Positions 1 through 40,654 of a stretch of DNA of 40,709 bases are shown here, in pieces; the first letter of the stretch is position 1; the number at the start of each line of letters is the position of its first letter. The notes below the pieces were generated by a model. It made no database searches and was not told the DNA's origin. It worked only from the letters and a program-made list of their open reading frames with translations. The translations under genes and the position numbers were made by a program. The stretch is from a virus: positions 1-40,709 of IMG/VR virus record IMGVR_UViG_3300035142_000014. One strand, written 5' to 3'.

Positions 1-18
1 GGCAGCAGTAGAAATTTT

Positions 19-51
19 GGGATTTTGGGTACCGGGTACGGGGTTCTGGGG
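19..51 (+). other. Canonical G-quadruplex motif
   Basis: Five G-runs lie in 33 bases: positions 19-21, 27-29, 34-36, 40-43 and 48-51, separated by loops of 5, 4, 3 and 4 bases. This satisfies the usual G3+N1-7 pattern with one spare run. The G-rich strand is the coding strand, so the structure could form in the non-template DNA or in a transcript. Its place just ahead of the terminase genes suggests a packaging or promoter role, which is inference. Confidence 0.6.
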
Positions 52-61
52 TGGTCGCAAT

Positions 62-90
62 GTATCAGCGCGCGAGTTGTCCGTTACCTT
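62..90 (+). promoter_or_regulatory. Bipartite promoter-like motif, copy 1
   Basis: GTATCAG, 15 bases, then TTACCTT, ending 35 bases before the small terminase start. The bases preceding it (AAT) also match. The same layout recurs at 3755-3783 and 15230-15258, where the second box is CTACGAT. This copy is the least exact. Likely a late promoter, inferred from recurrence and placement upstream of structural genes. Confidence 0.45.
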
Positions 91-125
91 GGTAGAGACC
101 GGATCAAATCCGGGAAAAGACCGGT

Positions 126-776
126 ATGTCCGACTCCGATCCCACCACTGAGCGCGGCCCATGGCTCCGCCTACCTGAAGAGACCGCGAAATCATACGCC
201 GCGTTTATGGCCTACCTTGGCCTGGGCCCCCGGCGCTCGATCGCCCGCGCCATGGAGTTAGTCGGAGCCGGCCCCGGAAGCGTGCGTCAGTGGGAGAGGT
301 GGAGCTCAAAGTACAACTGGGTGGCCCGCGCCGAGGCCTACGACGACGATCGCCTGCTCAAGGACATGCAGCGCCGCGAGCGGGACACGGAGATCGCACG
401 GCAGGCGTTCCTGTCCCGCGCACTAGACAACGTAGCGGCCCACGGGGACATAGCCCGGGGCCGGATGCCTTTGGGCGATGCCATGCCTGTCACGGACAAG
501 CACGGCAAGGTGATCACCTATATGGCGACCGGTCCTGATGGCGAGGAGGTGGAGCGCCCCGTCATGCGCCCACTGATCCCGGCGTCAGTGCGACTGAGTG
601 CAATCCAGCACGAGTTAGGGGTCGGTGGGATTGATAAGGTCAGGCGCATGGAGCTCACCGGCAAGGATGGCGATGCCATCCGCCTCCAGGCACACGTGGC
701 GCTGGCCCAACTCGATCCGGACAAGCTGGTGGCGCTCGCCGCGGCGTTCGGGGTGGGCGACGATGGCGACGAGTAG
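126..776 (+). CDS. terS: Terminase small subunit
   Basis: Probable DNA-recognition subunit of the packaging motor, binding phage concatemers and handing them to the large subunit. The 216-residue product has a helix-turn-helix-like stretch at about residues 36-60 (RSIARAMELV...SVRQWERWSSKYNW), the usual N-terminal DNA-binding layout of small terminases, followed by a charged helical middle. It ends 14 bases inside the start of the large terminase gene, the standard pairing. The ATG is preceded by a purine-rich stretch (GGGAAAAGA) rather than a strong Shine-Dalgarno. The family is divergent and the call rests mainly on position plus the HTH. Confidence 0.75.
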   Translation: MSDSDPTTERGPWLRLPEETAKSYAAFMAYLGLGPRRSIARAMELVGAGPGSVRQWERWSSKYNWVARAEAYDDDRLLKDMQRRERDTEIARQAFLSRALDNVAAHGDIARGRMPLGDAMPVTDKHGKVITYMATGPDGEEVERPVMRPLIPASVRLSAIQHELGVGGIDKVRRMELTGKDGDAIRLQAHVALAQLDPDKLVALAAAFGVGDDGDE

Positions 777-2337
777 CGCCCGCGACAACCTGACCCTCCT
801 GGCTGGGTTGCCCCCTGATGAAATCCGCGAGCGTATCGACGCGGCGCTTTGTACGCAAAGCCTGGCTGAATTCGTGCGCCGCGCGTGGCTGATCCACCAT
901 ACGCAGCCCCCGACCTGGGGTTGGCACATGGACGCCATCTGCGAGCACCTTGAGGCGGTTCACGCGGGGCAGATCGAGTGGCTTCTGATCAACATCGCAC
1001 CCGGGTTCGCCAAGTCCCTGCTGGTGAGCGTCTACTTCCCGGCGTGGGTCTGGACCCACAATCCCGGGTACCAGTTTTTGTGCTCCGGCGCGGCCGAGTC
1101 CGTGGTCCTGCGTGATGCGCGCCGGCAGCAGGAGGTGTGCCAGAGCCCGTGGTATCAGCGGGCGTTCATCCCGCAGTGGGAGATGCTTTCAAGTCAGAAC
1201 GCCAAGGGCTACTTCGTCAACACGATCGGCGGCCATCGGATCAGCCGGACGTGCCAAAGCGCGATCACTGGTCTCCGGGGCGACTGCCGGATCCTTGACG
1301 ACCCCCTGGACGCCCAGAAGGCCTATGACGACAAGAGCTCGATCGACAAAACCAACGACTGGATCGACTCGGTGTTTCTGAAGCGCCGGAACACCCAGGC
1401 CAGCCCGCTGATCTTGATCATGCAGCGCCTGAACGAGCGAGACCCCACCGGCTATCTGCTGGAGAAAAACCACCCGAACACGGTTCACCTGAGCCTGCCG
1501 AACGAGTATCACAAGGACGTCGTGATCGACACCGGCGTGATTCGCCGAGCTACCGGCAAGCCGTGGGCCGACCCGCGGGAACGTGAGGGCGAACTGCTGT
1601 GCCCTGCCATCCTGAACGACGCCGGGACGGCCGAGGAGCGGGAAAACGAGATCATCTATAGCGCACAGTACCAGCAGGATCCAATGCCGGCTGGGGGTAC
1701 GATTTTCATCCGCGAGAATTTCAAGCGATGGGTACATCCCGGCACGAAGGGTGCGGAAGAGCGCGGCGCGGTGGAGCTCCCGGCCCGCAAGGACTTCGAT
1801 CGGGTGGTGCTATCACTCGACCCGAACAACCTCAAGGCCGTCAAGGCGACGCGCAACACGGACTACGCCGTGCTGGACGTCTGGGGCGCGCTGGGCCGGG
1901 ATCGGTATCTGATACGTCAGATCCGGGAAAAGCTCGGGGTCGGGGCGACGATCCAGCTGTGCTTGCGAGCGATCGAAGAGCATCAGCCGGATAAGGTCTA
2001 CATCGAACGCAGCGCCAACGGCCCTAGCGTGATCAGCGCCGTCAAGGCCGAGCTGGGGTTGCCGGACAAGGACACCAGCTACGTGGTGTCGGTGAGTGTG
2101 CAGGGCGAAAGCAAGACACAGCGTGCGACGGCTGCAACGCCGATCATTGACTCCGGGCGCGTCTACGTCCCGGACCCGGACGAGTACGGCGAGATGGCGT
2201 ACTGGTTCATGGAGGTCTGTGGATTCCCCGGCCGTCGCCGGGACGATCGCGTAGACACGATGACGATGGCCCTTCTCGAGTTGGAGAAGGATCAGGGTCA
2301 GCAGGTCTGGACGATGAGCATGAAAAGGGACAAGTAA
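763..2337 (+). CDS. terL: Terminase large subunit (ATPase and nuclease)
   Basis: Motor and endonuclease that pumps DNA into the prohead and cuts it. The 524-residue protein has an N-terminal ATPase with a Walker A-like loop at about residues 79-85 (APGFAKS, where many relatives have PRxGKS) and Walker B around 176-180 (RILDD). The C-terminal RNase H-like nuclease shows LSLDPN with DYAVLDVW, then KVYIERSANG, and a final DDRVDTMTMAL. This order fits the large-terminase C-terminal nuclease family often annotated in prophages. The start at 763 is chosen because upstream codons in this frame are a shadow of terS; the genes overlap by 14 bases. The Ala-Lys-Ser in Walker A is a mild departure from the usual Gly-Lys-Ser. 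Confidence 0.93.
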   Translation: MATSSARDNLTLLAGLPPDEIRERIDAALCTQSLAEFVRRAWLIHHTQPPTWGWHMDAICEHLEAVHAGQIEWLLINIAPGFAKSLLVSVYFPAWVWTHNPGYQFLCSGAAESVVLRDARRQQEVCQSPWYQRAFIPQWEMLSSQNAKGYFVNTIGGHRISRTCQSAITGLRGDCRILDDPLDAQKAYDDKSSIDKTNDWIDSVFLKRRNTQASPLILIMQRLNERDPTGYLLEKNHPNTVHLSLPNEYHKDVVIDTGVIRRATGKPWADPREREGELLCPAILNDAGTAEERENEIIYSAQYQQDPMPAGGTIFIRENFKRWVHPGTKGAEERGAVELPARKDFDRVVLSLDPNNLKAVKATRNTDYAVLDVWGALGRDRYLIRQIREKLGVGATIQLCLRAIEEHQPDKVYIERSANGPSVISAVKAELGLPDKDTSYVVSVSVQGESKTQRATAATPIIDSGRVYVPDPDEYGEMAYWFMEVCGFPGRRRDDRVDTMTMALLELEKDQGQQVWTMSMKRDK

Positions 2338-3753
2338 ATGGGCATCCGTGAGACTGTCAGAAACTGGCTGTTCCGGGACATCACAGAGGATCGCGACGCC
2401 GACCGGACCGACTATTTCGCGTCGTGGGGTGACGGCTGGTACTCGCCAGTGCTCACGTTCTCAGGCCTGAACCTGGACGAGGTGATTCAATCGGCGTGGG
2501 CGTCCTACGTTGCGATCGATGGCAATAGCCGGACGATGGCAAGCCTCGATCCCGTGGTCCAGATGAGACGTGGCGGCACGTGGAAGCAGGCGCCCGACTC
2601 TCATCCCCTGTGGGTCTGGCTTGCCGACCCCATGGGCCCAGATCCGGTGTATCCGTTCTGGTCCTGGGGCCGGCTCATGCATCTGGTGTTCCTCCACCGG
2701 TACGCCGCCGGGAATTGCTACCTGAAGCCCCAGATCGTCGGCCGCGGTGAGAGCCGGAGGATCTACGCCGTGGTGCCGTTTCTGAGCCCAGGGAGCATGG
2801 GGGCTACAGAGGATCCCGACCTCAAGACGGTGGAGAAATACTACTACCTGGGCGACCAGTACGATCCCAGCCAGATCGTCAACATCTCCGTGCCGGGGGC
2901 CGATAGCTACTGGAAGGGGTCCAGTCCACTGCGCGCTGCCATGGGTGCGATCAGTACGGAGAACTACGCCGCCACGCGCCAGGACGCTGCCCTCCGAAAC
3001 CGGATAGGGCTCGGCCCGATCGTCGCGATCAAGACTCCACTGGGTCCGAACAAGAACCAGGAGGATGAGCTCTACGATCGCCTGATCGCCAACTACCAGG
3101 ACGCGAAAAACGAAGGCCTGCCGTGGATCGTCGGCGGGGAGATCGAGGTCACCGAAGGGCCGAAGGCGTCCGACCTGGAGCTTTTTGAAACGCGGAAGTA
3201 CGCCGCGAATCAGATTCTGAGCGTGATCGGGATGCCGCCACCCGTAGCCGGGCAACTGGACCGCGCGACGTGGGCGAATTTCGAGCAGGCGAACATCTCG
3301 TGGTGGACTCACTACCTATTCCCGAACCTGAACGACACCTACCGTGCGATCAATGCGCAACTGGTGAGCCAGGTCTACGGCCCGGACGTCCGGGTCTGGT
3401 ACGACCTCACGGGCTCGGACATCGCCCACCAGCTTTTCGGGCAGCGCGTCAAGACGGCGCTGGAGCTCCAAAAGCTGGGCTACTCCACCAATGACATCAA
3501 TCAGCGCCTGGAACTCGGCATGGACTCGCCGGAGTATCTCGACCTGCCGAACACCCAGCTTGTCCAGGCCGGGCGCGTGGACCTTTCGGCCGTGGTCAAG
3601 ATGCTGCAGGAAGGCCTTGGTGCCTTGGTCAAGGACGATGAGCCAGAGCCGGATCCGCCGCCGCAGATGATTCCGCCCACGGTCCCCGTTCCCGAGCTCC
3701 AGCCGGCCGAGGAAGGCCAGGACGGGGACGGGGACGAGGACGAGACGCCGTAA
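2338..3753 (+). CDS. Portal protein (HK97 family)
   Basis: Forms the dodecameric ring at one capsid vertex through which DNA passes. The 471-residue product has typical HK97-type portal features: an early VIQSAWASYVAIDGNSRTMA helix region, the HPLWVWLADP segment, AAGNCYLKP in the wing, and the hallmark region with ILSVIGMPPPVAGQ and ANFEQANISWW near residues 293-322. The tail is acidic and proline-rich, ending in Asp/Glu runs encoded by a near-repeat of GACGGG. It starts directly after the terL stop and its own stop lies inside promoter-like motif copy 2, which marks a likely new transcription unit. Confidence 0.93.
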   Translation: MGIRETVRNWLFRDITEDRDADRTDYFASWGDGWYSPVLTFSGLNLDEVIQSAWASYVAIDGNSRTMASLDPVVQMRRGGTWKQAPDSHPLWVWLADPMGPDPVYPFWSWGRLMHLVFLHRYAAGNCYLKPQIVGRGESRRIYAVVPFLSPGSMGATEDPDLKTVEKYYYLGDQYDPSQIVNISVPGADSYWKGSSPLRAAMGAISTENYAATRQDAALRNRIGLGPIVAIKTPLGPNKNQEDELYDRLIANYQDAKNEGLPWIVGGEIEVTEGPKASDLELFETRKYAANQILSVIGMPPPVAGQLDRATWANFEQANISWWTHYLFPNLNDTYRAINAQLVSQVYGPDVRVWYDLTGSDIAHQLFGQRVKTALELQKLGYSTNDINQRLELGMDSPEYLDLPNTQLVQAGRVDLSAVVKMLQEGLGALVKDDEPEPDPPPQMIPPTVPVPELQPAEEGQDGDGDEDETP

Positions 3754-3783
3754 TGTATCAAACCGGGCGCGTGGGTCTACGAT
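3750..3783 (+). promoter_or_regulatory. Bipartite promoter-like motif, copy 2
   Basis: GTAATGTATCAA, 15 bases, then CTACGAT, lying in the only gap between portal and protease genes. The two boxes match copy 3 (15225-15258) exactly, 19 of 19 bases, with identical spacing. The second box ends 7 bases before the protease ATG, so if it is a -10 element the transcript would have almost no leader. Inferred late promoter for protease and capsid. Confidence 0.6.
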
Positions 3784-3790
3784 ATGTAGC

Positions 3791-4558
3791 ATGGATCCGA
3801 GTACCCACGGAATCCGCGGCCTTGCCTCGGTATTCGGCAACCTAGACGCCTACGACACGATCGTAGACCGCGGTGCCTTTGCGCGTGAGGTGAAAGCCTT
3901 CCGCGCCGGGGAGACGCTTCCCCTTGTTTCCCGACACAATACCCTGCGGGATCCACGCGCCGAGCCGATCGGCGTAGTGACTTACCTGGAGGAAACCGAC
4001 GAGGGCCTGTATTTCGAGGCCCGCCTTGACGACACCCAGGTAGGCCGGGATGCGCTGACGCGGGCCGAGTCCGGATCCGGCTCTGACGCCTCCTTCTCCT
4101 TCCAGCCAGTCCGCACATACATGGAGGAGGGGCGGCGCGTGATCCGCAAGTCTGGGCTTTACGCGTTTTTTGGCGACGATGCGTGGGAGAAATCCGGCGG
4201 GCGGGACCTGTGGACAGAGTGGAGCGGGCGCGGGCTGGATGGCACCGACCACGAGCGGATCGTGCTGCCTACGCGCGAAGCAATGGCCATGATAAAGGCC
4301 GCCAAGAAGATCAAGGGGTGGGGCGAGCTTGACCCCATCCACCCGCTTAGGGTGATCAAGATCGAGCACCTCTCAGAGGTGGGCGGCGTCAAGGAGCTCG
4401 GCCCGAGTCCCGCCCGCCTCGGCGCGAATCCCAAGGCATACGCCGAGGCCTTTGATCTGGCCGAGGCCAAAGAGCAGAACAACGCCGCGCCAACGGCCGC
4501 GGACAACAACCCCCTAGCCGATGCACTCGCATTGGCAGCACAGGAGATCGCACAATGA
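3791..4558 (+). CDS. HK97-family prohead protease
   Basis: Matures the prohead by cleaving the capsid N-terminal delta domain. The 255-residue protein opens with the family signature GLASVFGNLDAYDTIVDRGAF (in two parts, residues 10-30), has the catalytic His in LVSRHNT (H49), and the nucleophile region GSDASFSFQP (probable S101), consistent with peptidase family S78. The C-terminal half beyond residue ~190 is low-complexity and Ala-rich. The ATG is close behind the promoter-like motif and lacks a good Shine-Dalgarno, so it could be translated from a near-leaderless message. It overlaps the capsid gene by 4 bases. Confidence 0.9.
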   Translation: MDPSTHGIRGLASVFGNLDAYDTIVDRGAFAREVKAFRAGETLPLVSRHNTLRDPRAEPIGVVTYLEETDEGLYFEARLDDTQVGRDALTRAESGSGSDASFSFQPVRTYMEEGRRVIRKSGLYAFFGDDAWEKSGGRDLWTEWSGRGLDGTDHERIVLPTREAMAMIKAAKKIKGWGELDPIHPLRVIKIEHLSEVGGVKELGPSPARLGANPKAYAEAFDLAEAKEQNNAAPTAADNNPLADALALAAQEIAQ

Positions 4559-6180
4559 GCGAGCGAAGCATGGACGCGCCTGGCGTGGACGCCAAAGTCC
4601 GGGACGAGCTGGGTAAGCTGATCGACGCAACCAACAACGTGGAGACCCGCGTGGACAAGGCCCTGGACCTCATGGCCCGGGACGTCAAGAGCATCGCCGA
4701 GAAGGTGGACAAGGCCACGGCCGATGCCCTCACCAAGGCCGCCGACGCCCTCGAGGGCTCCCGCACGGCCGAGGAGAAGGCCAAGGGCTACGACGTGTTG
4801 GAAACCTCCATGCGCGACGCCTACGCGAAGATCGAGTCCCGCATGGACGAGCTGGAGGCCGCCGCGCAGCGCCCGCGCCAGGGTGGCCGCAACGAGCGCA
4901 CATTCGAGGACGCGCTGAACGAGCGCACAGCCGACATTCAGGAGTTCCTGAACGGCCACGATCGCGGCGCCCGCGTCCAGATCGGTGACGTGCCGCGGCT
5001 GGACATCGAGACCCGCGCCCTGCCGAACCTGGGCGACACCCAGCTGGGCGCCATCGTCCAGGACCACTACCTGCCGACCTTCGACCTCCTGCGGGCCGAG
5101 ATGGTGGGTTTTCTGGACCTGATTCCGAAAACTCCGCCCGTGCGCGGCGACACGATCAAGGCGCCGTACTGGACGCGCAAGGGCAAGAGCTCCTTCGTGC
5201 AGACCCTGGTCAACGGCGCGATCACCGGCGACGTAACCCCGGTCAACGACGTGACCGTCGACAGCACGGCCGGATTCGTGGCCGGGTCCTACGCCCGGTT
5301 CTACACCGCAGGCAGCGGCACGCTTCTGGGCCGCGTCAAGATCGCGTCCATCCCGGACACCACCTCGCTGATTTTCGCCACCGACGCGATCGACTTCGCG
5401 ATCGCCGACGACGATGAGTGCATGTGCGAGGCCATCGCCGCGACGGCCGAGCAGGGCACCAAGCCCCCCGGGTACTTCGAAAACGCGCTGGCGTCGGTGA
5501 CCAGCCAGACGATCGCCGTCTACACCAAGCTGACCCGCCAGGTCCTGGCCGATTCGCCCCAGCTCGCGAGCTACATCCAAGGCGAGCTCCGGATGCGGCT
5601 CCGCGAGTCCCTGGAACTCCATTGCCTCTACGGCACTGGCACCGCCCCGCTCCTGGATGGGTTCATGAACCACGCCAGTCTGGCCACCGACGTCTGGGGG
5701 ACCGTCCTCACCGTGGGCGACACCATGGCCGACCTGCTGACCTACGCCGCCGGCCGCATTCCCGGCCGCTACCCGAAGGTCTGTGTCATGTCCTCGGGTA
5801 CGGACTACGAGGAAACCGGGACGGCCTACGAGTCGGACTGGAACAAGCTCGTGCGGGCCAAGGCCGACGACGGCCACTACATCCACGGGCGCAACGGTCC
5901 GATCTCGATCGTCAACGAGCCCGGCCGCAAGTCGGTGGGCGCCGTGCGCGTGGTCGAGACCCAGCAGATGCTTCCGCAGTCCGCCCTGGTGATCGACCCG
6001 CGGAACGCCTCGACCCTGATCCCGCGCGCTGGCATGACCAACTTCGAGATGTCCTACGTGGGCAACGACTTCATCCAGAACCTGACCACCCTGCTCTACG
6101 AGGAAGGCTGGGCCCACATGATCAAGGACGCCGCGGCGTTCCGCGCGCTGGACTTCAGCACCGAGCCCAGCGCCGTATAG
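4555..6180 (+). CDS. Major capsid protein, HK97 fold, with delta domain and inserted domain
   Basis: Main shell protein. At 541 residues it is longer than typical HK97 capsid precursors (about 385-430). Residues 1-115 are a charged coiled-coil delta/scaffold domain. The HK97 core follows: LGAIVQDHYLPTF, then LTRQVLADSPQLASYIQGEL, LHCLYGTGTAPLLDGFM, and the C-terminal P-domain segment. Between the predicted E-loop strand (IKAPYWTRKGKSSF) and EQGTKPPGYFE lies about 70 extra residues with beta-rich pattern (VDSTAGFVAGSYARFY, GRVKIASIPDTTSLIF). This looks like an inserted domain at the E-loop. The TGA-overlapping ATG couples it to the protease. Confidence 0.92.
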   Translation: MSERSMDAPGVDAKVRDELGKLIDATNNVETRVDKALDLMARDVKSIAEKVDKATADALTKAADALEGSRTAEEKAKGYDVLETSMRDAYAKIESRMDELEAAAQRPRQGGRNERTFEDALNERTADIQEFLNGHDRGARVQIGDVPRLDIETRALPNLGDTQLGAIVQDHYLPTFDLLRAEMVGFLDLIPKTPPVRGDTIKAPYWTRKGKSSFVQTLVNGAITGDVTPVNDVTVDSTAGFVAGSYARFYTAGSGTLLGRVKIASIPDTTSLIFATDAIDFAIADDDECMCEAIAATAEQGTKPPGYFENALASVTSQTIAVYTKLTRQVLADSPQLASYIQGELRMRLRESLELHCLYGTGTAPLLDGFMNHASLATDVWGTVLTVGDTMADLLTYAAGRIPGRYPKVCVMSSGTDYEETGTAYESDWNKLVRAKADDGHYIHGRNGPISIVNEPGRKSVGAVRVVETQQMLPQSALVIDPRNASTLIPRAGMTNFEMSYVGNDFIQNLTTLLYEEGWAHMIKDAAAFRALDFSTEPSAV

Positions 6181-6187
6181 GTGAGCC

Positions 6188-6442
6188 ATGAGACCGCGCC
6201 GACGTGTTAAGCGGATCCGGATGATCAAGACCCACGAAGGCCTGGAGGTGGGCGTGATTCTGTCCCGGCCGCACCATGTGGCCGAGGCTTACGTCCGCGA
6301 AGGTCTCGCGGAATACCTGCCCTTGGACGCCCCGGCCCCGGCAGTCGCCCCCCCTCCCGGCCCCGGGGCTCGGGTGTCCTCCTCTGACAAGCCAAAGCCG
6401 AAGCGCAAGCGCAAGGCCAAGGCGAAGCCCAAGGCCGACTAG
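6188..6442 (+). CDS. Small Lys/Pro-tailed structural-region protein
   Basis: 84-residue protein of unknown function between capsid and connector genes. Residues ~12-46 look like a small folded domain (GLEVGVILSRPHHVAEAYVREG), followed by a Pro-rich linker and a strongly basic tail (KPKPKRKRKAKAKPK). The same plan, small domain plus Lys-rich tail, is seen in the gene at 6857-7072. Small proteins of this form near capsid genes occur in many phages, with unproven roles such as head-tail joining or DNA contact. ATG 6188 follows a GGTGA purine stretch; an internal ATG at 6221 is also possible. Confidence 0.6.
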   Translation: MRPRRRVKRIRMIKTHEGLEVGVILSRPHHVAEAYVREGLAEYLPLDAPAPAVAPPPGPGARVSSSDKPKPKRKRKAKAKPKAD

Positions 6443-6852
6443 TGGCCACGGCGGCGGCCACATACCTCTGGGCCGACCACAAGGCCGCGATCCGGGTCTT
6501 CGTGGGCCTGGCGTCCGACGATGACAGCGAGGACACTAACCTGGGGCTGTGGTTCGACGCTGCGGTGGCAGCGTGCGACAACTTCGTCCGGTGGACTTGG
6601 GTGGATTCGGACGATGCGGACGTGACCCATGGCTCCGGGGTCAAGCTCGGGATCTATGAGTACATCCGCGCCTTGCGAGACCACTACAAGCGGGGCAATG
6701 TGTTGGGCGTGACCCAGCGTCGCACTGGGGCCCTGGCTGAAAACTACGGCGGGGGCGGCCTGCTGACGGGCGCCGATCTGGCGCTCCGCGCAGCCCGCCC
6801 CCACTGGCATCACGACGCCCGGACCACATGGCTCCAGGGCGCGGAAGGATAG
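6442..6852 (+). CDS. Head-tail connector, gp6-like
   Basis: 136-residue adaptor, probably the ring under the portal. It follows the helical pattern of HK97 gp6-like connectors: DHKAAIRVFVGLASDDD...DAAVAACDNFVRWTW near the N-terminus, then a helix (IYEYIRALRDHYKRGN). The GTG start overlaps the previous TAG (CTAGTG), a junction form used repeatedly in this genome. Function is by family resemblance and position. Confidence 0.7.
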   Translation: MATAAATYLWADHKAAIRVFVGLASDDDSEDTNLGLWFDAAVAACDNFVRWTWVDSDDADVTHGSGVKLGIYEYIRALRDHYKRGNVLGVTQRRTGALAENYGGGGLLTGADLALRAARPHWHHDARTTWLQGAEG

Positions 6853-6856
6853 GTCC

Positions 6857-7072
6857 ATGAAGGTCCGATTTCTTTTCACGAAGTCCGCCCCGCTAGACGG
6901 GCGCGGCAAGCCTCGGGCGGTACCTGGGCTGATCGTCAAGATGTCCGCCAGCGATGCCGCGCGGTATTCCGCTGGCGGGTTCGGCAAGGTGATCCAGGAC
7001 AAGGACCTAGTCCACGCGAAGCCCAAGAAGTCCGGCAAGAAGTCCGGCAAGAAGTCCGGCGAGGACGAGTAG
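6857..7072 (+). CDS. Small Lys-tailed structural-region protein with KKSG repeats
   Basis: 71-residue protein of unknown function. The N-terminal part (MKVRFLFTKSAPLDGRGKPR, then LIVKMSASDAARYSAGGFG) resembles small phage proteins with the layout 'MKVRFL ... A..Y...G' and a charged tail. The tail carries three perfect 12-base repeats (7025-7060) coding KKSG three times, then EDE. Paired in architecture with the 6188 gene. Start ATG follows GATAGGTCC. Confidence 0.6.
   Translation: MKVRFLFTKSAPLDGRGKPRAVPGLIVKMSASDAARYSAGGFGKVIQDKDLVHAKPKKSGKKSGKKSGEDE
7025..7060 (+). repeat. Three tandem 12-bp repeats coding KKSG
   Basis: AAGAAGTCCGGC occurs three times without mismatch at the 3' end of the 6857-7072 gene. 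It lengthens the basic tail by slippage-prone units. Confidence 0.9.
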
Positions 7073-7073
7073 G

Positions 7074-7532
7074 GTGCCCAAGGACGTCCAGGACATTGAC
7101 CGCGGCTGGGGTGCAATGGTGACAGCCGTTGCCGATGCCGATGGTGTGGAGGCCCGCATGGGCTACCTGTCCGGCGTCCCGAAGTATCCCAGGAAGCGGG
7201 GCAAGACGCAGGTGGCAAAGGTCGCCGGCGTCCACGGGCTTGGCGGCGCGTCTGGTCTAATCTCGAAAGTCTGGGACGCCACAGAGCCTGAGCGCGCCCG
7301 CCGCAAGGCCCGCGCGATCGATCGGATCATGAAGGGCGCCGACGCCGAGACAGAGATGCTCAATGTTGCAGAGTGGCAGCGGGATCAGTACAGGGACGCC
7401 ATCCGATCCAAGGGCCTGGAAGACACCGGCCGCCTGATCGAGGGTGTCCGCGCTGCTATCTTCGACGGCAAGACCTGGGTGGCTGGCGACGACCCGAAGC
7501 AGCCCCGAATGGGCAACAAGGGGCCGTTCTAG
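7074..7532 (+). CDS. Probable tail-completion / minor virion protein (gp10-like)
   Basis: 152 residues, GTG start at 7074 one base after the previous stop. It begins DIDRGWGAMVTAVADADGV, with a following HGLGGASGLISKVWD and a helical middle rich in Arg (ERARRKARAIDRIM), ending LEDTGRLIEGVRAAIFDGK. This pattern (small beta start, Arg-rich middle, terminal 'G.LI.gI' helix) is that of HK97 gp10-like or Mu-like tail-joining proteins placed here in many myophages. Assignment is by layout and position only. Confidence 0.5.
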   Translation: MPKDVQDIDRGWGAMVTAVADADGVEARMGYLSGVPKYPRKRGKTQVAKVAGVHGLGGASGLISKVWDATEPERARRKARAIDRIMKGADAETEMLNVAEWQRDQYRDAIRSKGLEDTGRLIEGVRAAIFDGKTWVAGDDPKQPRMGNKGPF

Positions 7533-7885
7533 TGACCCTGCTCGGTCAGGAAACCCTGACGGTGACGCCCTACACCGTGGCAGAGGCAAGCGGCGTTCTG
7601 GTGCCGTCTGCGGGGACGCCGTTCACGGTGATTGGTACCGTGTTGCCAATCTCCGATCGAACGCTCCAGATGCTGGATGAGGGAACCAGGGCGTCGGCAC
7701 GATTTGAGCTCTACGTGGAAGGCACGGACCCGGCGCCGGACATGTCTGCCACTGGCAGCGCTGCAGACCGCACCACGTGGAACGGTCGCACCTACAAGCT
7801 GATCGGCGTCCGGGACTACACCCAGCACACCACAGGCATCCCGCACAAGCGGTATGTACTGGCCGAGGTGGGCTCCGATGAGTAG
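7532..7885 (+). CDS. Head-closure / head-tail adaptor protein
   Basis: 117-residue beta-rich protein. The true start is GTG 7532, which overlaps the previous TAG; codons further upstream in this frame are a shadow of the preceding gene. Features typical of stopper proteins: VIGTVLPISDRTLQMLDEGTR, a mid strand FELYVEG, and WNGRTYKLIGVRDYT near the C-terminus. These proteins plug the connector channel after packaging. Overlaps the next gene by 8 bases. Confidence 0.65.
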   Translation: MTLLGQETLTVTPYTVAEASGVLVPSAGTPFTVIGTVLPISDRTLQMLDEGTRASARFELYVEGTDPAPDMSATGSAADRTTWNGRTYKLIGVRDYTQHTTGIPHKRYVLAEVGSDE

Positions 7886-8402
7886 GGCAACTGCCATAGA
7901 GTCCGCCCGCTCGATCCTGGCCACGGCTACGGGGCTGTCTGTCCTGTACGCCCAACAGCCCGAGGCGACCGCGTTTCGGCCCACGGCGGCCAACTACCTG
8001 ACTCTCGAGGCCTTGGCTGACGCCAACGTCGGGAGCGTACCGCGCCCATTCATGGACGCGACGCAAGACGATGACGGCATTCCGAACCCGCTGACCCTGA
8101 CGCATTACCAGCGCCGTCGAACCACGCTCCAACTGTCTTACTGGGGAGCCGGGGCCGCCGACGCGCTGATCAACCTCCACCTAGCCCTGAATACAGCCAC
8201 GGTCCGGGCGTCGCTTCGCGCGGCTGAAATCGGGCTCCATGTGGTCGGGGATACCGTGGAGGACAACGATGCCCAGCGGGACACGACACACGAGCCCGCT
8301 GCGACGCAGGACCTACACCTGTATTGGGTGGCCACAAAGGATGAGGACCTCCACCCGATCGAAACCATTACGAGCTCGGAGACTCTGAACGATCCGAGCT
8401 AG
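7878..8402 (+). CDS. Neck / tail terminator protein (gp12-like)
   Basis: 174-residue protein, ATG 7878. The opening MSRATAIESARSILATATGL and a central QRRRTTLQLSYWG with a later AEIGLHVVGDTV are characteristic of the neck terminator family found before the sheath gene in Bcep-like and related myophages. It would cap the tail tube and sheath where they meet the head. The 8-base overlap with the preceding gene supports coupling. Confidence 0.65.
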   Translation: MSRATAIESARSILATATGLSVLYAQQPEATAFRPTAANYLTLEALADANVGSVPRPFMDATQDDDGIPNPLTLTHYQRRRTTLQLSYWGAGAADALINLHLALNTATVRASLRAAEIGLHVVGDTVEDNDAQRDTTHEPAATQDLHLYWVATKDEDLHPIETITSSETLNDPS

Positions 8403-8413
8403 GAGCTTAGGCC

Positions 8414-9484
8414 ATGGCAACGGCGAATTTCAACAGCGACATCACGGTCAATCTCTATACGACCGCCCAGTCCGTGGATCGGACCGTGTTCGGGGTCGGC
8501 GCCATCGCCACAGAAGGCGTGGAGGCCGGATTCACGGAGACCTACCGGGTCTATGAGAGCAATACCGAGGTGCAGCAGGACTCGGACGTGGGCACCGTGG
8601 GCAAGGCCGCTGCGGCGGCTTACTACGCCCAGCCCCAACACCCGAAAAAGCTGATCATCATCTCGGCCGACTACGAGACGGTGGCCACCGGCGAGCTCGG
8701 CACCAGCCTGGATGCGGCCTACGCGGACATCCAGGAGGCCGGGGAGGACTTCTACGGCATCTGCGTGACCAGCCGCGACGAGTACAACTTCGCGGCGCTC
8801 GCCGCATGGTGCGCGACCAACACCAAGCTGGGGTTCGTGCAGTCCGACGACTCGGACGCCTCCGGAGGCACGCCGAGCAACGACTTTGACACCCTGCAGG
8901 CGCTGAGCAACAAGCACGGGATCAGCCTCTGGCATGACGATGACGCTGAGTATGCGGACATCGCATGGATGGCCCAGGTCCTGGCGGCCGACCCGGACAA
9001 CCGCGCCAGCGTGGCCTACGACAAGACCTTGACCGGGATGACCGCCCCGGTGCTCACCAGCACCAACAAGAGCAACATCCTGGGCTACGGCGGGAACCTC
9101 TACCTGCCGTTCCTCGGCGTGGATGTCACCCGGCCCGGCAAGGCGTCCGAGGGCTCCTGGATCGACGAAGTGATCCTGCAGGACTGGATCAAGGCCCGCG
9201 TTCAGGAGGACCTGGCGCAGTACCTGATCGATCAGTCCCAGCTCGGCCGCAAGGTGCCATACACGCAGATGGGCCTGAATGAGCTCGGCGCCCAGGTCGG
9301 CGGGAGATTCCAACGCGGCGTCCAGATCGGTCACTTCGAAAAAGACTCGGTTGTCGTGACCGTCCCGGACATCGACGATGTGTCCGCCGCGACGAAGGCC
9401 AGCCGCGCCGCGACGATCGAAGCCTCGGCCACCATCACCGGCGGGATCGCCACGGTGACCGTCAACATCGGCATCACGACCTGA
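8414..9484 (+). CDS. Tail sheath protein (DUF3383 type)
   Basis: Contractile sheath subunit, which marks the phage as a myovirus. At 356 residues it belongs to the short sheath class. The N-terminus (ITVNLYTTAQSVDRTVFGVG) and the middle (AAAAYYAQPQHPKKLIII, FYGICVTSRDE, YADIAWMAQVLAADP) follow the DUF3383 pattern, and the C-terminal part has the helix WIDEVILQDWIKARVQEDLA with the inserting strand region near the end. Preceded by AGGAG at 8401-8405. Confidence 0.85.
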   Translation: MATANFNSDITVNLYTTAQSVDRTVFGVGAIATEGVEAGFTETYRVYESNTEVQQDSDVGTVGKAAAAAYYAQPQHPKKLIIISADYETVATGELGTSLDAAYADIQEAGEDFYGICVTSRDEYNFAALAAWCATNTKLGFVQSDDSDASGGTPSNDFDTLQALSNKHGISLWHDDDAEYADIAWMAQVLAADPDNRASVAYDKTLTGMTAPVLTSTNKSNILGYGGNLYLPFLGVDVTRPGKASEGSWIDEVILQDWIKARVQEDLAQYLIDQSQLGRKVPYTQMGLNELGAQVGGRFQRGVQIGHFEKDSVVVTVPDIDDVSAATKASRAATIEASATITGGIATVTVNIGITT

Positions 9485-9498
9485 TAGGAGCCTGAACA

Positions 9499-9933
9499 AT
9501 GGCAGGAGCGCGACACTATAACCTGGACGAGGTCATGCTGATCGTGGCCGGCGTCTTTGTGGATGGGTTCATCGAGGGCGACGCGATCACCGTTGCCCGA
9601 AACGCCGATCGATGGGGGCTCAAGGACTCCCATCACGGCAATTCGATGTTCTTCAAAAATCCGGCCAACAGCGGCACCGCGACGATTAAGGTCGCACAGG
9701 GAAGCCCGGCCAATGTGGCACTGCAGGCCATCCTGGACACCGACGACGCAAGCGGGCTGGGCGTCGGGCCGTTCGAGGTCCGCGACCTGAACGGGACGTC
9801 ATACGCCATCGGCGAGCGGTCCCGGCTGGTCAAGGATCCCGACATGAAATTCGCCACCGAGGCCGGGGAGGTGGAGTACATGGTCCTGATCGCAGGGCTG
9901 AAGATCAATCACGGCCAGAATCGGCTGGCGTAA
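9499..9933 (+). CDS. Tail tube protein (DUF3277 type)
   Basis: 144 residues, start ATG 9499 behind TAGGAGCC. Probable tube subunit: YNLDEVMLIVAGVFVDGF, ITVARNADRW, ATIKVAQGSPANVALQAIL and a C-terminal MKFATEAGEVEYMVLIAGL fit the DUF3277 tube family that accompanies DUF3383 sheaths. Forms hexameric rings stacked inside the sheath. Confidence 0.82.
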   Translation: MAGARHYNLDEVMLIVAGVFVDGFIEGDAITVARNADRWGLKDSHHGNSMFFKNPANSGTATIKVAQGSPANVALQAILDTDDASGLGVGPFEVRDLNGTSYAIGERSRLVKDPDMKFATEAGEVEYMVLIAGLKINHGQNRLA

Positions 9934-9958
9934 TCACCAGCCATAGGAGGGGAGTCCT

Positions 9959-10501
9959 ATGCCTAAAACCGAACGCACCACAACGATCAATGACCACGAG
10001 TACCGCATGGTTCCGCTGGGAGCAGACGCGGGCCTGGACTTCGGCCTGGAGGTGGCAGAGATCGTCGGCGGACCGGTTGGTGCTGCTATCACGGCGGCCC
10101 TGTTTTCCGGGGACGAGGACGGCGAGGATCTAGACTGGGGCGGTGTGATTTCCGCCGCGGTAAACCTGCCGGCTGCGCTTCGCAAGGCCGGGGGCTCGGC
10201 CCTGTTCGCTCGAATCTTCGCCGGGAACTTTGTCCGCCAGATTCGACCTCAGGACGCTGGCCAGGCCCACGTACTCCAACTCAAGGACGCGCTGGCCCGA
10301 GATGAAGCGTTCGGGGATGGCAACCTGGCCGAGATGTTCGAAGTGGTGGCGTGGGTCATCAAGGAAAACTACGGCCCTTTCTGGACGGCTCTCTCAGGTC
10401 GCTTTGGCGGGCTGCTACAGCAGGCAGCCGGGTGGCTCGGCGCCGACCTGACCGAGACGCTGACGAACGAGAATCCGAACGCGCCGCCGAACGGCGACTG
10501 A
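9959..10501 (+). CDS. Tail assembly chaperone
   Basis: 180-residue acidic, helical protein between tube and tape-measure genes, the position of the gpG/gpGT-type chaperone that coats the tape measure. ATG 9959 has a strong AGGAGGGGAG upstream. Residues 60-75 hold a run of acidic residues and the body has FEVVAWVIKENYGPFW. A canonical slippery heptamer, CCCTTTC, lies in the correct reading frame at 10375-10381 and the -1 frame stays open to 10686, so a frameshifted longer product is possible (see findings). Confidence 0.7.
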   Translation: MPKTERTTTINDHEYRMVPLGADAGLDFGLEVAEIVGGPVGAAITAALFSGDEDGEDLDWGGVISAAVNLPAALRKAGGSALFARIFAGNFVRQIRPQDAGQAHVLQLKDALARDEAFGDGNLAEMFEVVAWVIKENYGPFWTALSGRFGGLLQQAAGWLGADLTETLTNENPNAPPNGD

Positions 10502-10686
10502 CAGAGGTATCCAATGCGGTCAAAGTCCACCTACAGCCCGGCCGACAGTGGCGCGGGTGGGCTTGGTACCTCGTTGTCACAGCCGGCGGATACGACCCGG
10601 TGCGGGTTTCGGTGGACTGGACGATCGTGGACGTTCACACGGTGGCAGCACACCTCGCCATCCGCGGCGCCTTTGATGGAGCCTAA
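10382..10686 (+). CDS. Possible -1 frameshift extension of the tail chaperone
   Basis: The -1 frame relative to the chaperone is open from before the slippery heptamer to a TAA at 10684-10686. Its last ~60 codons read like protein (WAWYLVVTAGGYDP, SVDWTIVDVHTVAAHLAI), and no ATG, GTG or TTG starts it sensibly after the chaperone stop. A competing reading is a 58-residue ORF in the original frame, ATG 10514 to TAG 10690, with AGAGG upstream and a CTAGTG junction to the next gene. One of the two is probably real. The Arg-rich part just after the heptamer looks like shadow coding, which weakens this model. Confidence 0.4.
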
Positions 10687-10690
10687 CTAG
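10514..10690 (+). CDS. Alternative small ORF between chaperone and tape measure
   Basis: 58 codons with an AGAGG Shine-Dalgarno six bases before ATG 10514 and a TAG that overlaps the tape-measure GTG in the CTAGTG form seen at five other junctions. The product begins MRSKSTYSPADSGAGG and shows no recognisable family. GC at third positions is about equal to that of the overlapping -1 frame, so composition does not decide between them. Confidence 0.3.
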   Translation: MRSKSTYSPADSGAGGLGTSLSQPADTTRCGFRWTGRSWTFTRWQHTSPSAAPLMEPN

Positions 10691-12537
10691 TGGCCACTCT
10701 CCGCGAAATCATCACGAAGATCACTTTTCGGAGTGACTCGGGGAAGCTCAAGGCCACAGAGCAGGGGGTCCGCAAGGTCAAAAAGCGGATGTCCCAGGCC
10801 GCTAAGGAGACCCGCAAATACCGTAAGAACATGGCCCAGCTCACCGGGGCCATGAAGGCGTTCGGCGCGGCGATTGTGGCCAACAGGATCGGCAAGGCGC
10901 TGATCGGTGGGTTTGCGGATGAGGCCGACGCGGCGGCCAAGTTTTCCGACGCCACGGGGATTCTTGTCGACGACTATCTGGCCCTTGGCCATGCCGCCAA
11001 CCTGAGCGGCGTTCAGCAGGCCGAGCTTGACAAGTCCTTGATGCAGCTTTCCAATCGGGCCCTGATGGTCACGCAGGGAAACAAGACCTACGCCCGATCG
11101 TTCGCCCAACTGGGGGTTAGCGTCACCGACGCCGCCGGGAAGCTCAAGGACCCAAAGCAGCTGTTCCTCGAGATGGCGGATCAGTTTCAGAAAATGCCGG
11201 CCGGGGTCAAGAAAACCGGTCTGGCCATGCAACTGTTCGGCCGCACTGGCGCCAAACTGAACGTCATGTTTGCGAACGGGTCCAAGGGGATCCGTGAGCA
11301 GATGGAGGAGTTCAAAAAGCTTGGCGGCGGATACACCCGCGCCCAGGCGGCACAGGCCGAGCTATACAACGACCAGAAGGCACGGCTGATCGTCGCCTTG
11401 AAGGGCGTGCGGAACCAGATCGCAGTCAAGCTACTTCCGGCGATCAATCGCACCACCGAAAGGATGCTTTCCTGGGTGAGAGAGGGCGGCAACGTTTCGG
11501 CGATGCTCGCCAAGATCGAATCCGCGGCCAAGTTGGCAGCCCCGGCAATTGCGGCGCTGGTGGTCTACATGAAGCGCGGGATCCTGCTCAACTTCGCCCG
11601 CGCCGTGGGGGCCGCCGCCAACGCACTGATGCTCATGGGCAAGGCCGCGATTTGGGCCAAGCTCAAGATGGGGATCCTGTTGTTGGCGATCGGCGCGATC
11701 GTGGACGTGATGCGCCTGGCAAGCGGGCAGGAATCAGTCCTGGGTCGCATGTTTGCAGATTCACCGGAGGCCTTGGCGTCGCTGCAGGAGGTGGGCAAGG
11801 TTCTGATCGACACGTTCAAGGGCTTGGCCAAGGATCTCGGCCCCACGCTTGCGGCGGCGTTCAGTGAGATCGTTCCGGCGCTGGCCGAGGTACTCGTTGC
11901 CCTGAAGCCTGCGATCCCTGGGCTGGTCAAGATCCTGGTGCTGGTGATCAAGCTCGTTGCGTGGTGGGTGAAAAAGGTAGCTCCGATTTTCGCGTGGTTC
12001 CTCAAAATTTTCCTAAAGCCGTTGGTGTGGATCTCAAAGCTGATCGCCTACGTGGCCGACCTGATCGATGAGACGGTTGATCTCGGCCGGGCATGGGACT
12101 GGATCGCGGCAAAATTCCGCGCCGTGGTGGGGTGGCTCAAGGCCAACCTTGGAGGCGTTTTTGCGTGGGCCGCGAACATCGCAAAGGGCGCGTGGCATGG
12201 GGTCTTGATTGTATTCAACGCGATCAAGACGGCGATCGCCTGGATCCTGGACAAGTCCGAAAGGGTCGCCAAGGTGGTTAAGAACCTCGGCGCAAAGGGT
12301 GTGCTCGGCACGCTCGGCGGCGGCATTGGCAGCCTGACCGGGGCCGTGGGCAAGACTGAGGGCGGAGGCAACACCACGGTGAATCGGGCAGTGAATACCG
12401 GCCCCGTGAATGTGACGGTCAACGCCGCGCCTAACTGGAGCGGTGGCGAATTCCAGCGCCGCGTGGGGGATGCCGTGGAGGGTGCGCTGCAGCGCCGAAT
12501 CAATGACGCATGGCGCACCACGTCGGAGGTCCAGTGA
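10690..12537 (+). CDS. Tail tape measure protein
   Basis: 615-residue protein that sets tail length and probably helps DNA ejection. The basic coiled-coil N-terminus (VRKVKKRMSQAAKETRKYRK) leads into the TMP signature region (ATGILVDDYLALGHAANLSG, ALMQLSNRAL-like, QLFGRTGAKL), then hydrophobic segments at about residues 278-345 and 390-440 that may insert into membrane. The C-terminus is Gly/Asn-rich. Using 1.5 angstrom per residue, the tail would be near 90 nm. Starts with GTG in a CTAGTG junction. Confidence 0.9.
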   Translation: MATLREIITKITFRSDSGKLKATEQGVRKVKKRMSQAAKETRKYRKNMAQLTGAMKAFGAAIVANRIGKALIGGFADEADAAAKFSDATGILVDDYLALGHAANLSGVQQAELDKSLMQLSNRALMVTQGNKTYARSFAQLGVSVTDAAGKLKDPKQLFLEMADQFQKMPAGVKKTGLAMQLFGRTGAKLNVMFANGSKGIREQMEEFKKLGGGYTRAQAAQAELYNDQKARLIVALKGVRNQIAVKLLPAINRTTERMLSWVREGGNVSAMLAKIESAAKLAAPAIAALVVYMKRGILLNFARAVGAAANALMLMGKAAIWAKLKMGILLLAIGAIVDVMRLASGQESVLGRMFADSPEALASLQEVGKVLIDTFKGLAKDLGPTLAAAFSEIVPALAEVLVALKPAIPGLVKILVLVIKLVAWWVKKVAPIFAWFLKIFLKPLVWISKLIAYVADLIDETVDLGRAWDWIAAKFRAVVGWLKANLGGVFAWAANIAKGAWHGVLIVFNAIKTAIAWILDKSERVAKVVKNLGAKGVLGTLGGGIGSLTGAVGKTEGGGNTTVNRAVNTGPVNVTVNAAPNWSGGEFQRRVGDAVEGALQRRINDAWRTTSEVQ

Positions 12538-13109
12538 TGGCTGAAGCGGTCTACTATCTGGTCGACCTCACGACTTACACCACGCTGTTTGAATTCGCAA
12601 CCGAGGAAAGCGAAAAGGCCGACCTGAAGGTCACTTGGACGAAGTATCCGATCGAGGCCGGCGCCAACGTGTCTGACTTTGGGTACGTGGAGCCGAAGGA
12701 GTACGAGGTAGAGGGCTATCTCACGGCCTATCCGATGATCGGCGGCGAAAACCTGCCGGGCCTCCTGGCTGCAGACAAGGCCTTGGAGACCCTCGCTGAG
12801 GCCAAGCAACCGGTCACCTTGATCACCTACTATTGGGCCGTCCAGATCGTCCTGGATTCGGCCGAGCGCGTATCCGATGGTAGCGCCGGGAATGCGCTGA
12901 AGGTCAAGATCAAGGGGCATACCGTGGACATCCCTGGCGTGAGGTACACCAACGTCCCAGCCAAGCGGATGAAGCGCGCTGTCAAGCGGCGGGCAGCGCC
13001 GAAAAAGGCACCGGCCGGGGCGTCTCCGAAATCAACCAAGACACCATCCACGGACCCCTATAGCCCCACCAATAAGGCCTATTGGGCGAACATCGCGGCG
13101 GCGCTATGA
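12537..13109 (+). CDS. Dit-like baseplate hub-adaptor protein
   Basis: 190 residues, ATG 12537 overlapping the tape-measure TGA (TGATG). The conserved part is VTWTKYPIEAGANVSDFGYV with EYEVEGYLTAYP, the pattern (target-strand, 'hPVE.Ga.isDh', 'G') of the Dit-like N-terminal domain in small-baseplate myophages. It would ring the tube end and anchor the hub. The last 60 residues are basic and Ala/Pro/Lys-rich, ending in NKAYWANIAAAL. Confidence 0.7.
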   Translation: MAEAVYYLVDLTTYTTLFEFATEESEKADLKVTWTKYPIEAGANVSDFGYVEPKEYEVEGYLTAYPMIGGENLPGLLAADKALETLAEAKQPVTLITYYWAVQIVLDSAERVSDGSAGNALKVKIKGHTVDIPGVRYTNVPAKRMKRAVKRRAAPKKAPAGASPKSTKTPSTDPYSPTNKAYWANIAAAL

Positions 13110-13483
13110 TCTACTGGATTCCCCCATACGAGCCCGACGAAGTCTATCCGGTCTACGATCACACGGTCGACTTGGGCGACGTTGAATACAGCTACACCCT
13201 GACCTACCGTGAAAGGCAGGATGGGTGGTATCTGGATCTCTACGATGCAGACGGCGAAGCCCTTGTGACCGGCAAGCGGCTTTCGATCGACGTCCCGGTG
13301 CTCTGGCGCCACGTAAAGGACGGCATGCCGTCCGGCGGCCAGATCGTTGTGATCGATACGGCGAACACAGGCACCGATCCGACCTACGAGGATCTAGGCT
13401 ATCGCGTAAAGCTAGCGTGGATCCTGGAGGCGGACTATCCGGACGCATCCGTTGACTACGGTGTCACGATCGAGGTTACCTAG
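13106..13483 (+). CDS. Baseplate plug-like protein (Pam3 gp18 / DUF6983-like)
   Basis: 125 residues. The core YSYTLTYRERQDGWYLDLYD, ADGEALVTGKRL and a final LGYRVKLAWI form the 'y...yR...gWyldlyda.G..i..G..l' pattern of a baseplate family typified by the cyanophage Pam3 plug. It probably sits at the baseplate centre near the spike. ATG overlaps the previous TGA. Confidence 0.6.
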   Translation: MIYWIPPYEPDEVYPVYDHTVDLGDVEYSYTLTYRERQDGWYLDLYDADGEALVTGKRLSIDVPVLWRHVKDGMPSGGQIVVIDTANTGTDPTYEDLGYRVKLAWILEADYPDASVDYGVTIEVT

Positions 13484-14289
13484 TGACGACGATCCAGGAC
13501 AGACGCCTGATCGTCAAGGTGGGCCTACCGGCCGGGCTTGCTCAGACCTGGACCGACCTTCACATGGAGGTGGAGACCGAGTCCGTCAATGGATCCACGC
13601 CGAACAAGTGCAGGGTGAAGATCTGGAATCTGTCGCCCACGTCGCTAACGTTCTTGCGCCAGAAAAAGCTGATCCTACAGGTCCTGGCCGGCAGTCCGAT
13701 CCCGAGCTCCATCTTTGCGGGAGACATAGACAAGCGAGGCGTCAAGACGACGATTCAGGGGCCCGACCAGATCACGGAGATCAGCGCCAAGGATGGCGGG
13801 GAGATCATCCGGAACAAGATTTTCACCGCGTCCTATCCGCCCGGCACTACGCGCAGCCAGGTACTGACGGACCTCCTGGCCCAGGCTAATCTGATCCGCG
13901 GCTACATCGATCCGCTGATCGCTGAGCGAGTCTACAAGGGCCCGGTGGCGTGGGCGGCCCCGGTGCGGAATGTACTCCATGAGCTCTACGCCCCAGAGGG
14001 CGCTCTGTGGTCCATCCAGGACGGCGTACTCCAGGTCCTGCATATCGGTAGCCCGCTACCCGGAAGCGCGCTCCTGGTGACGTCTGGGACGGGTCTCATG
14101 GGGTCGCCCACGGTCACCGACAAGGGGATCGACCTCAAGATGGTGCTAAATCCCGCGATCAAGCCCGGGGGGCTGTTGTCCGTCCAGAGCCGGGTGGCGA
14201 CTGGCGCCTATACGGTGTCAAAAATTCAACACCGCGCACACCGCACCGGGCTGGTGTGGGAGTCTCTGATCCAGGCGAGGCCGCAATGA
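13483..14289 (+). CDS. Baseplate hub protein (gp27/gp44-like)
   Basis: 268 residues, GTG start in a CTAGTG junction. The beginning LIVKVGLPAGLAQTWTDLHM and KCRVKIWNLSPTSLTFLRQK are typical of hub proteins in Bcep/Mu-type baseplates, where an early 'v.vyNL...t...l' motif is conserved. The middle has FAGDIDKRGVKTT and the tail end carries the usual 'v.GaY.V.kieh.gd..g..w.t' pattern (TGAYTVSKIQHRAHRTGLVW). It forms the trimeric hub holding the spike. Confidence 0.75.
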   Translation: MTTIQDRRLIVKVGLPAGLAQTWTDLHMEVETESVNGSTPNKCRVKIWNLSPTSLTFLRQKKLILQVLAGSPIPSSIFAGDIDKRGVKTTIQGPDQITEISAKDGGEIIRNKIFTASYPPGTTRSQVLTDLLAQANLIRGYIDPLIAERVYKGPVAWAAPVRNVLHELYAPEGALWSIQDGVLQVLHIGSPLPGSALLVTSGTGLMGSPTVTDKGIDLKMVLNPAIKPGGLLSVQSRVATGAYTVSKIQHRAHRTGLVWESLIQARPQ

Positions 14290-14939
14290 GCGATCCGACC
14301 CTCGAGGACCTGTTCCGGCGGATGATCGACGATGCCAACGGTACGCAGATCGGGGCCGTGCCGGCCACGGTGACGAAGTACACCCCGGCCACCCAGCGAT
14401 GCGACGCCAAGCCTCTGGCTCAGATGGCGACGGACGGAAGCGGGACCCTTCGGCCCCTGCCGATCTGCAGGGAGGTGCCCGTGGTGTGGCCGAGCGGGGC
14501 AGGGTGGGCGATCACCGGGCCGATGGCCGTGGGGGATATTGTATGGCTGCAGCCGGCCGGGTGCGATATCAGCGCCTGGGCACAGAACGGCACGCCGGAC
14601 GCCACCGACGCGGATCCGCGCTGGAACAGCCTGTCTGACGTGGTGGCCCTGCCGGGGTTGCGGCCTGTCACGGATCCGTTGACGTCGGACCAGTATAGCG
14701 CGGCGGCACTCGTGGTGGCGGCAGCCTCGGTCCTGCTCGGGGACTCCACGGCGACGGATAGGGTAGGGCTTGCGGGCCTGATCTATGCCGAGTTGACCAA
14801 GATCGAGACGGCCCTAAGCACGCACACCCACGCGGGGGTAACCACAGGCGTGGGTACAAGCGGAACGCCGGCGGCCCCGCCCTACGTGAAGCCCGCCAAC
14901 GCCGCCGCCATCGGCGCGGGGAAGGTGTACGCAATATGA
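14286..14939 (+). CDS. Baseplate spike protein (Gp138/gpV-like)
   Basis: 217 residues, start ATG 14286 inside the previous stop (ATGA). Residues 10-110 match an OB-fold spike N-domain: RRMIDDANGTQIGAVPATVT, LPICREVPVVWPSGAGWAIT and VGDIVWLQ. The C-terminal part contains LSTHTHAGVTTGVGTSGTP, the His-x-His spike segment in which paired histidines bind iron in related tips. It pierces the host outer membrane. Confidence 0.85.
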   Translation: MSDPTLEDLFRRMIDDANGTQIGAVPATVTKYTPATQRCDAKPLAQMATDGSGTLRPLPICREVPVVWPSGAGWAITGPMAVGDIVWLQPAGCDISAWAQNGTPDATDADPRWNSLSDVVALPGLRPVTDPLTSDQYSAAALVVAAASVLLGDSTATDRVGLAGLIYAELTKIETALSTHTHAGVTTGVGTSGTPAAPPYVKPANAAAIGAGKVYAI

Positions 14940-15292
14940 AGGATCTGAAGCTCGACCCGGACACCTGGGATCTGGCCTACGAGGAAGGCGACCTAGTGAT
15001 CATCGAGGACCAGGACGTGGTGGAGCAGTCGATCAAGATCGCGCTCCTGACCCAACTCGGGGAATGGGCCTACGATACCGACGCCGGGACGGCCTGGATC
15101 GGGCAGATCATGGGCCGCGGGGTCCCGGACGCGGCGATCGAGGCTGAGATCCGGCGTGTGGTGCTCGCTGTGGAGGGCGTGACCGAAGTATCGGACCTGA
15201 CGATCGTCCGGGACGTTCTGACCCGTAATGTATCAATAACGGTCTATGCGGCTACGATTTACGGTGATGCCGAGGCATCGCTGACGGTGTGA
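14936..15292 (+). CDS. Baseplate wedge protein, gp25/W-like
   Basis: 118 residues. VVEQSIKIALLTQLGEWAYD followed by GTAWIGQIMG gives the gp25-like lysozyme-related wedge fold, whose 'E.r' region lies in the middle helices. This protein starts sheath polymerisation in contractile tails. Its 3' end carries promoter-like motif copy 3. Overlaps the spike gene by 4 bases. Confidence 0.85.
   Translation: MKDLKLDPDTWDLAYEEGDLVIIEDQDVVEQSIKIALLTQLGEWAYDTDAGTAWIGQIMGRGVPDAAIEAEIRRVVLAVEGVTEVSDLTIVRDVLTRNVSITVYAATIYGDAEASLTV
15225..15258 (+). promoter_or_regulatory. Bipartite promoter-like motif, copy 3
   Basis: GTAATGTATCAA, 15 bases, CTACGAT, the same boxes and spacing as copy 2. It lies inside the end of the gp25-like gene, 37 bases before the J-like start. 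The intervening 15 bases differ from copy 2, so the match is not a simple duplication. Inferred internal promoter for baseplate, fibre and lysis genes. Confidence 0.55.
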
Positions 15293-15295
15293 TCC

Positions 15296-18425: not shown

Positions 18426-18435
18426 GAAAAAAACG

Positions 18436-18451: not shown

Positions 18452-18488
18452 TAACCGCTGGCCACTGAGCCAATGAGAGGAGAACGAA

Positions 18489-22381: not shown

Positions 22382-22385
22382 GGCA

Positions 22386-40327: not shown

Positions 40328-40654
40328 ATGCCCAGGCGCCCGCGCATACGAGGACAGTGCGAGCATGGCCCCCGTCCCTGCCCCTGGTTCGGATGCCGCT
40401 ATCACCTGGGCTCGGACGAGGTCACGCGCAACCATTGGGACCAGACCGTCCGCACCAAGATCACGCTCAGGCCAGAGCTCATGGAGGACGGCACCCCCAC
40501 ATGCGCTCTGGACGTGGCAGAGCAGGGATGCCACAGCCAGCGCGACGTGGCCACACTGCTGGGCCTATCGCAGCCGCATGTACTACGAGCCGAGCGCATA
40601 GCCCTGGTCAAGGCGCGCAAGGCGTTTGAGGAGATCGACTGGTTTGGAGAGTAG
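40328..40654 (+). CDS. Sigma-region-4-like HTH regulator with Cys-rich N-terminus
   Basis: 108 residues, ATG 40328. Residues 9-26 (GQCEHGPRPCPWFGCRYH) give three Cys plus two His, a probable metal-binding group. Residues 59-95 (CALDVAEQGCHSQRDVATLL, then GLSQPHVLRAERIALVK) resemble sigma-70 region 4, with 'v..ll.ls...v...e..al.k'. A family of this plan, 'RPCPWvSC.yHL ... CaLDvA', occurs in deltaproteobacteria and phages. Being the last gene before the terminase (if circular) it is a good candidate for a late transcription activator acting on the bipartite motif. Confidence 0.6.
   Translation: MPRRPRIRGQCEHGPRPCPWFGCRYHLGSDEVTRNHWDQTVRTKITLRPELMEDGTPTCALDVAEQGCHSQRDVATLLGLSQPHVLRAERIALVKARKAFEEIDWFGE

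Follow-up and report, generated by a model that had tools for sequence, protein, structure and literature searches.

The closest described counterparts of the sites reported here appear to be the phage-specific promoters of Salmonella phage 7-11 and of phage phiEco32, and the relation is one of resemblance, not of membership. The late promoters of 7-11, which use the sigma factor SaPh711_gp47, have been mapped experimentally to the pattern GTAAtg-(16)-aCTA (PMC8948821), and the middle and late promoters of phiEco32, which use gp36, have been mapped to the element tAATGTAtA (PMC8948821, PMC4331800). The 7-11 promoters had also been predicted from low-copy motifs aligned in pairs (PMC4331800), and because that predicted motif differs from the one mapped by primer extension (PMC8948821), the inference of promoters from sequence only calls for caution. 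In phage Mu, the host polymerase needs a phage-made activator, the C protein, for the late genes (PMC4461284), and cluster A mycobacteriophages carry asymmetric stoperators that are spread over the genome (PMC9283540).

The stretch of DNA analysed here (the window) is a viral record of 40,709 bases with 63% GC, in which the called genes all lie on the + strand. The virion genes (terminase, portal, protease, capsid, tail and baseplate) come first, and replication and small genes follow past about 23 kb; gene starts were set by a simple caller together with homology, and the family-library scans took in part of the small genes. Within this layout, three copies of a bipartite motif lie on the + (coding) strand, each ending 7-37 bp 5' of a gene start. 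Copies 2 (3748..3783) and 3 (15223..15258) are exact and have 14+7 bases in common, CCGTAATGTATCAA-N15-CTACGAT. The earlier note had described these two copies at 3750-3783 and 15225-15258 with unrelated spacers; both are present and their spacers are only 33% alike, but the common part is longer than the 19 fixed bases that it counted, since the first box comprises 14 bases from 3748 and 15223. Copy 1 (57..90), AATGTATCAG-N15-TTACCTT, is weaker and matches at 14/19 positions; it had been placed at 59-90, and its start is better given as 57-59. Specifically, its boxes are AATGTATCA at 59-67 and TTACCTT at 84-90, the latter with a -10-like TACCTT at 85-90. A scan of the whole window on either strand found no fourth copy, the next best site being intragenic with a 13/19 match, which agrees with the earlier search by eye.

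Each copy stands less than 40 bp upstream of a gene start, before the terminase, the protease/capsid and the J-like genes, as had been claimed, and a zone of 80 bp around gene starts takes in only 14% of genome positions. Copy 1 is intergenic and lies 35 bp from the terminase small subunit gene (126..776, + strand; PHROGs phrog_6299, E 8e-20). Copy 2, likewise intergenic, overlaps the portal stop codon (3751-3753), and its -10-like TACGAT (3778-3783) ends 7 nt 5' of the ATG (3791) of the head maturation protease gene (3791..4558, + strand; phrog_80, E 5e-19). Copy 3 is located within the coding sequence of a gp25/W-like baseplate wedge protein (14936..15292, + strand; phrog_120, E 1e-32), 37 bp from the baseplate J-like gene (15296..16477, + strand; phrog_6, E 2e-48).

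Scoring against shuffled sequence, the check named in the earlier note, gave 0 matches to the full fixed pattern in 100 shuffles, a count that ignores the motif having been picked post hoc. A test that is fairer in this respect compares all gapped pairs on the same strand, information-weighted by composition. By this measure the exact pair ranks first in the genome, and a pair at least as good turns up in 1.3% of order-3 Markov sequences and in 2% of codon shuffles (P about 0.01-0.03). Without weighting, the genome holds about six other 12+7 exact-block pairs, with local tandem repeats set aside, and a shuffle holds about one. The bare argument from 19 fixed bases is therefore weak, and it is the composition weighting that makes the pair rare, because an AT-rich motif stands in a GC-rich genome; the assertion that such a match is unlikely by chance in 40 kb is upheld in its weighted form and not in its unweighted form. 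Once the first box is fixed, the probability of an equally strong second box within 40 nt is about 0.001-0.002. For a third site as good as copy 1, P is about 0.03 (one strand). At copy 1 the first box matches at 9/9 positions and the second at 4/7, a match that chance gives in 7% of cases.

A single chance repeat with a gap among 40 kb, copy 1 being a weak look-alike and copy 3 plain gp25 coding sequence, would fit the abundance of unweighted 12+7 pairs, and it would also fit the finding that three occurrences of AATGTATCA without the second box are not significant (34% of shuffles hold such a 9-mer). This explanation is nevertheless improbable, as it must absorb the weighted pair, multiplied by the third copy and again by three placements at gene starts, and in addition the rare codons that fall exactly across copy 3. 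There, the motif codes for RNVSITVYAATI close to the C-terminal end of the gp25/W-like protein. The 12 codons across it rank, by codon choice, in the bottom 0.1% of 11,918 windows and form the most unusual stretch in the virion-gene half; for AT content, the 34 bp of the motif rank in the top 0.2% of that half. Such codons would suit a DNA signal overlying a protein; they are partly implied by the AT-richness of the motif itself, and we count them as support and not as independent proof.

For calibration, the same pair scan was run in five control phages of 58-70% GC. A pair of comparable strength was not found in three of the five. Rhizobium phage RHph_X3_2 contains one repeat, inside a tail gene, and Microbacterium phage MementoMori contains a 12+13 pair in two intergenic gaps (9115-9146 and 38042-38073). 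From these five phages, strong pairs tend to have a cause rather than to be noise. The MementoMori repeat, CTCGACACGCCG-N7-AACCCGGATTAGG, is itself bipartite and a candidate promoter or operator. Taken together, the motif of the window is very probably real and beyond chance.

TAnnnT recurs in the second box of every copy (TACGAT, TACGAT and TACCTT), and the 17 bp from TGTATC to TACGAT correspond to -35/-10 geometry with a non-standard -35. In a scan for sigma-70-like sites, none of the three sites scored as a canonical sigma-70 promoter (TTGACA at -35), and positions 1-20000 show no enrichment of canonical sites (1 against 3.1 expected). One mark of late promoters in general is found here: a motif that recurs more often than chance allows and stands just 5' of late gene units, on their coding strand. 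We consider it probable that the sites serve as phage-specific late promoters, in which host RNA polymerase would use the -10 and a phage factor would act at the first box. The earlier proposal is thus supported in part: the beyond-chance repetition, the apt location and the geometry favour a phage late promoter, whereas the factor that it named is weakly backed. Activator-dependent late promoters of the Mu type are laid out in the same manner, as a -10 plus an activator box. The Mu box differs in sequence from the present one, and no C homologue was recognised among the proteins scanned.

Like the 7-11 promoters, the three sites are bipartite, few and located 5' of late virion genes, with GTAATG followed by a CTA-containing box. 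Unlike in 7-11, where GTAATG and CTA are 17 bp apart, the distance here is 21 bp, and with this difference in spacing we rejected membership in the 7-11 type. Sites of that type (up to 2 mismatches, own spacing) number 10 in the window against 9.5 expected, and none lies at the three loci. At the 7-11 sites, a phage sigma factor directs the host core polymerase; no full phage sigma factor was recognised here among the proteins scanned, in a search whose queries did not include gp36 and gp47 themselves.

The phiEco32 element tAATGTAtA is matched at 8/9 positions in copies 2 and 3 (TAATGTATC) and at 7/9 in copy 1 (PMC8948821). The sites could accordingly be single-element promoters of the phiEco32 type, in which AATGTAT would be the core (-10), a phage sigma factor would read it, and the second box would be secondary or fortuitous; that copy 1 is best kept in its first box (9/9 versus 4/7) points the same way. 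In phiEco32, however, a single element suffices and transcription starts 6-8 bp past it, whereas here a second box stands at fixed spacing, which chance alone would rarely supply (P about 0.001-0.002), and phiEco32 has gp36, whereas the proteins scanned here yielded neither a homologue of it nor any other sigma factor of that type. We therefore regard the single-element alternative as unlikely.

A slightly less likely alternative is that the sites are operators or stoperator-like sites, at which a phage repressor or regulator would block or end transcription at gene boundaries. Cluster A stoperators are likewise short asymmetric sites across a genome that are bound by a phage protein, and the sites in the window are asymmetric, co-oriented with transcription and placed at gene boundaries (PMC9283540). 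On the other hand, the stoperators have many more copies, no second box and a known repressor, whereas the present sites are bipartite, with a fixed 15-bp spacer and TAnnnT, and number only three; the protein scan brought up neither a repressor nor an integrase, although 27345-28436 encodes a Gp3-like (recombination directionality factor-like) protein.

Outside the window, the motif at these loci occurs only in IMGVR_UViG_3300042731_002926, a 21,630-base IMG/VR contig from the same virus that is identical to window positions 2-21631. The exact pattern has 45 matches in IMG/VR, two of which are in this contig; the other 43, one per record in contigs of lower GC (32-54%), look like chance. Queries with the portal, MCP, sheath-like, J-like, TerL and P0001 proteins returned the identical contig or remote matches only (about 25-40% protein identity), and among these no relative near enough to judge how well the motif is kept; an Rfam search returned no matches. 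The contig begins one base past the window start, which hints that a physical genome end may lie just 5' of copy 1. Copy 1, 58 bp from the contig end and beside the terminase small subunit gene, could then mark a packaging or genome-end processing site. Terminase-binding sites cluster near one place, whereas the two best copies lie 3.7 and 15.2 kb from that end, and we hold this explanation to be very unlikely.

For the late-promoter reading that we prefer, the factor proposed earlier was the product of the last gene in the window (40328..40654, + strand), a protein of 108 aa (P0001) with a Cys-rich N-terminus and a C-terminal helix-turn-helix (HTH) that had been called sigma-region-4-like. 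The resemblance is seen, and it is weak: the C-terminus matches NCBIfam sigma factor C-termini at E 0.008-0.07, far under the curated cut-off, and a PDB sigma factor at E 0.81, and the protein has no Pfam match and no PHROGs match. No homologues were found in phages, plasmids or IMG/VR, and the single-sequence model (mean pLDDT 58.9, below 50 at the HTH end) is too poor to use. If the ends of the record join, the gene lies directly 5' of copy 1, a position that would suit a late regulator. On this basis, the protein is a tentative candidate for the factor of the motif, and it is doubtful that its Cys-rich module and HTH would stand in for the host sigma factor in recognising the -35 and so redirect the host polymerase to AATGTATCA-N15-CTACGAT promoters.

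The 287-bp gap 5' of the 40328 gene (40041-40327) contains nested inverted repeats. Its perfect 11-bp arms, AAACTGTCACT and AGTGACAGTTT (40104-40114 and 40137-40147), flank a very AT-rich core and are enclosed by outer 25-nt arms at 40056-40080 and 40171-40195 (84%). Three of the four sigma-70-like sites in 20710-40709 fall in or just before this gap, which may possibly be an operator, origin or promoter region. Other possible regulators are a PAPS-reductase/DUF3440 protein (24263) and the ParB-like protein that adjoins it (25450). The pair, at 24263-25968, recalls the IbrA/IbrB regulators, and a ParB-like/oxidoreductase pair likewise opens the MementoMori genome.

From the sequence, statistics, location and geometry of the sites, we infer a promoter activity, its timing, the polymerase and the factor as follows. 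The host RNA polymerase, carrying its primary sigma factor, would contact the second-box TAnnnT as the -10 element, and a phage-made factor would bind the AATGTATCA box at the -35 distance, in lieu of a normal -35. Because a phage-made factor would take the -35 box, the virion genes would be switched on only once early products accumulate. Transcription of the terminase-portal unit would begin at copy 1 and that of the protease-capsid-tail unit at copy 2, in the latter case possibly giving a near-leaderless mRNA; from copy 3, the baseplate-J and tail-fibre end would receive additional transcription. The predicted starts are about 97, 3791 and 15266, at most 30 nt from the respective ATG, and the predicted protease start coincides with its ATG. 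The Shine-Dalgarno match of the protease gene is 3 nt only; it was dropped as a sign of a leaderless mRNA, since several other late genes also have 3-nt matches. RNA hairpins past the predicted starts were discarded as well: all three regions can fold, but their energies reach the lowest 7-10% of genome windows at most and are for the greater part ordinary.

Phage-specific promoters are an already known kind of element, and the sites would be ordinary in kind; the motif is solid, and the predicted mechanism is unproven. If the proposal is true, it would show, from sequence alone, how an orphan tailed phage plans its transcription, together with a concrete promoter/factor pair, and it would add one more to the few phage-specific late promoters with two conserved boxes. 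Two-box late promoters of this sort would offer a way in to how small phage proteins alter polymerase specificity.
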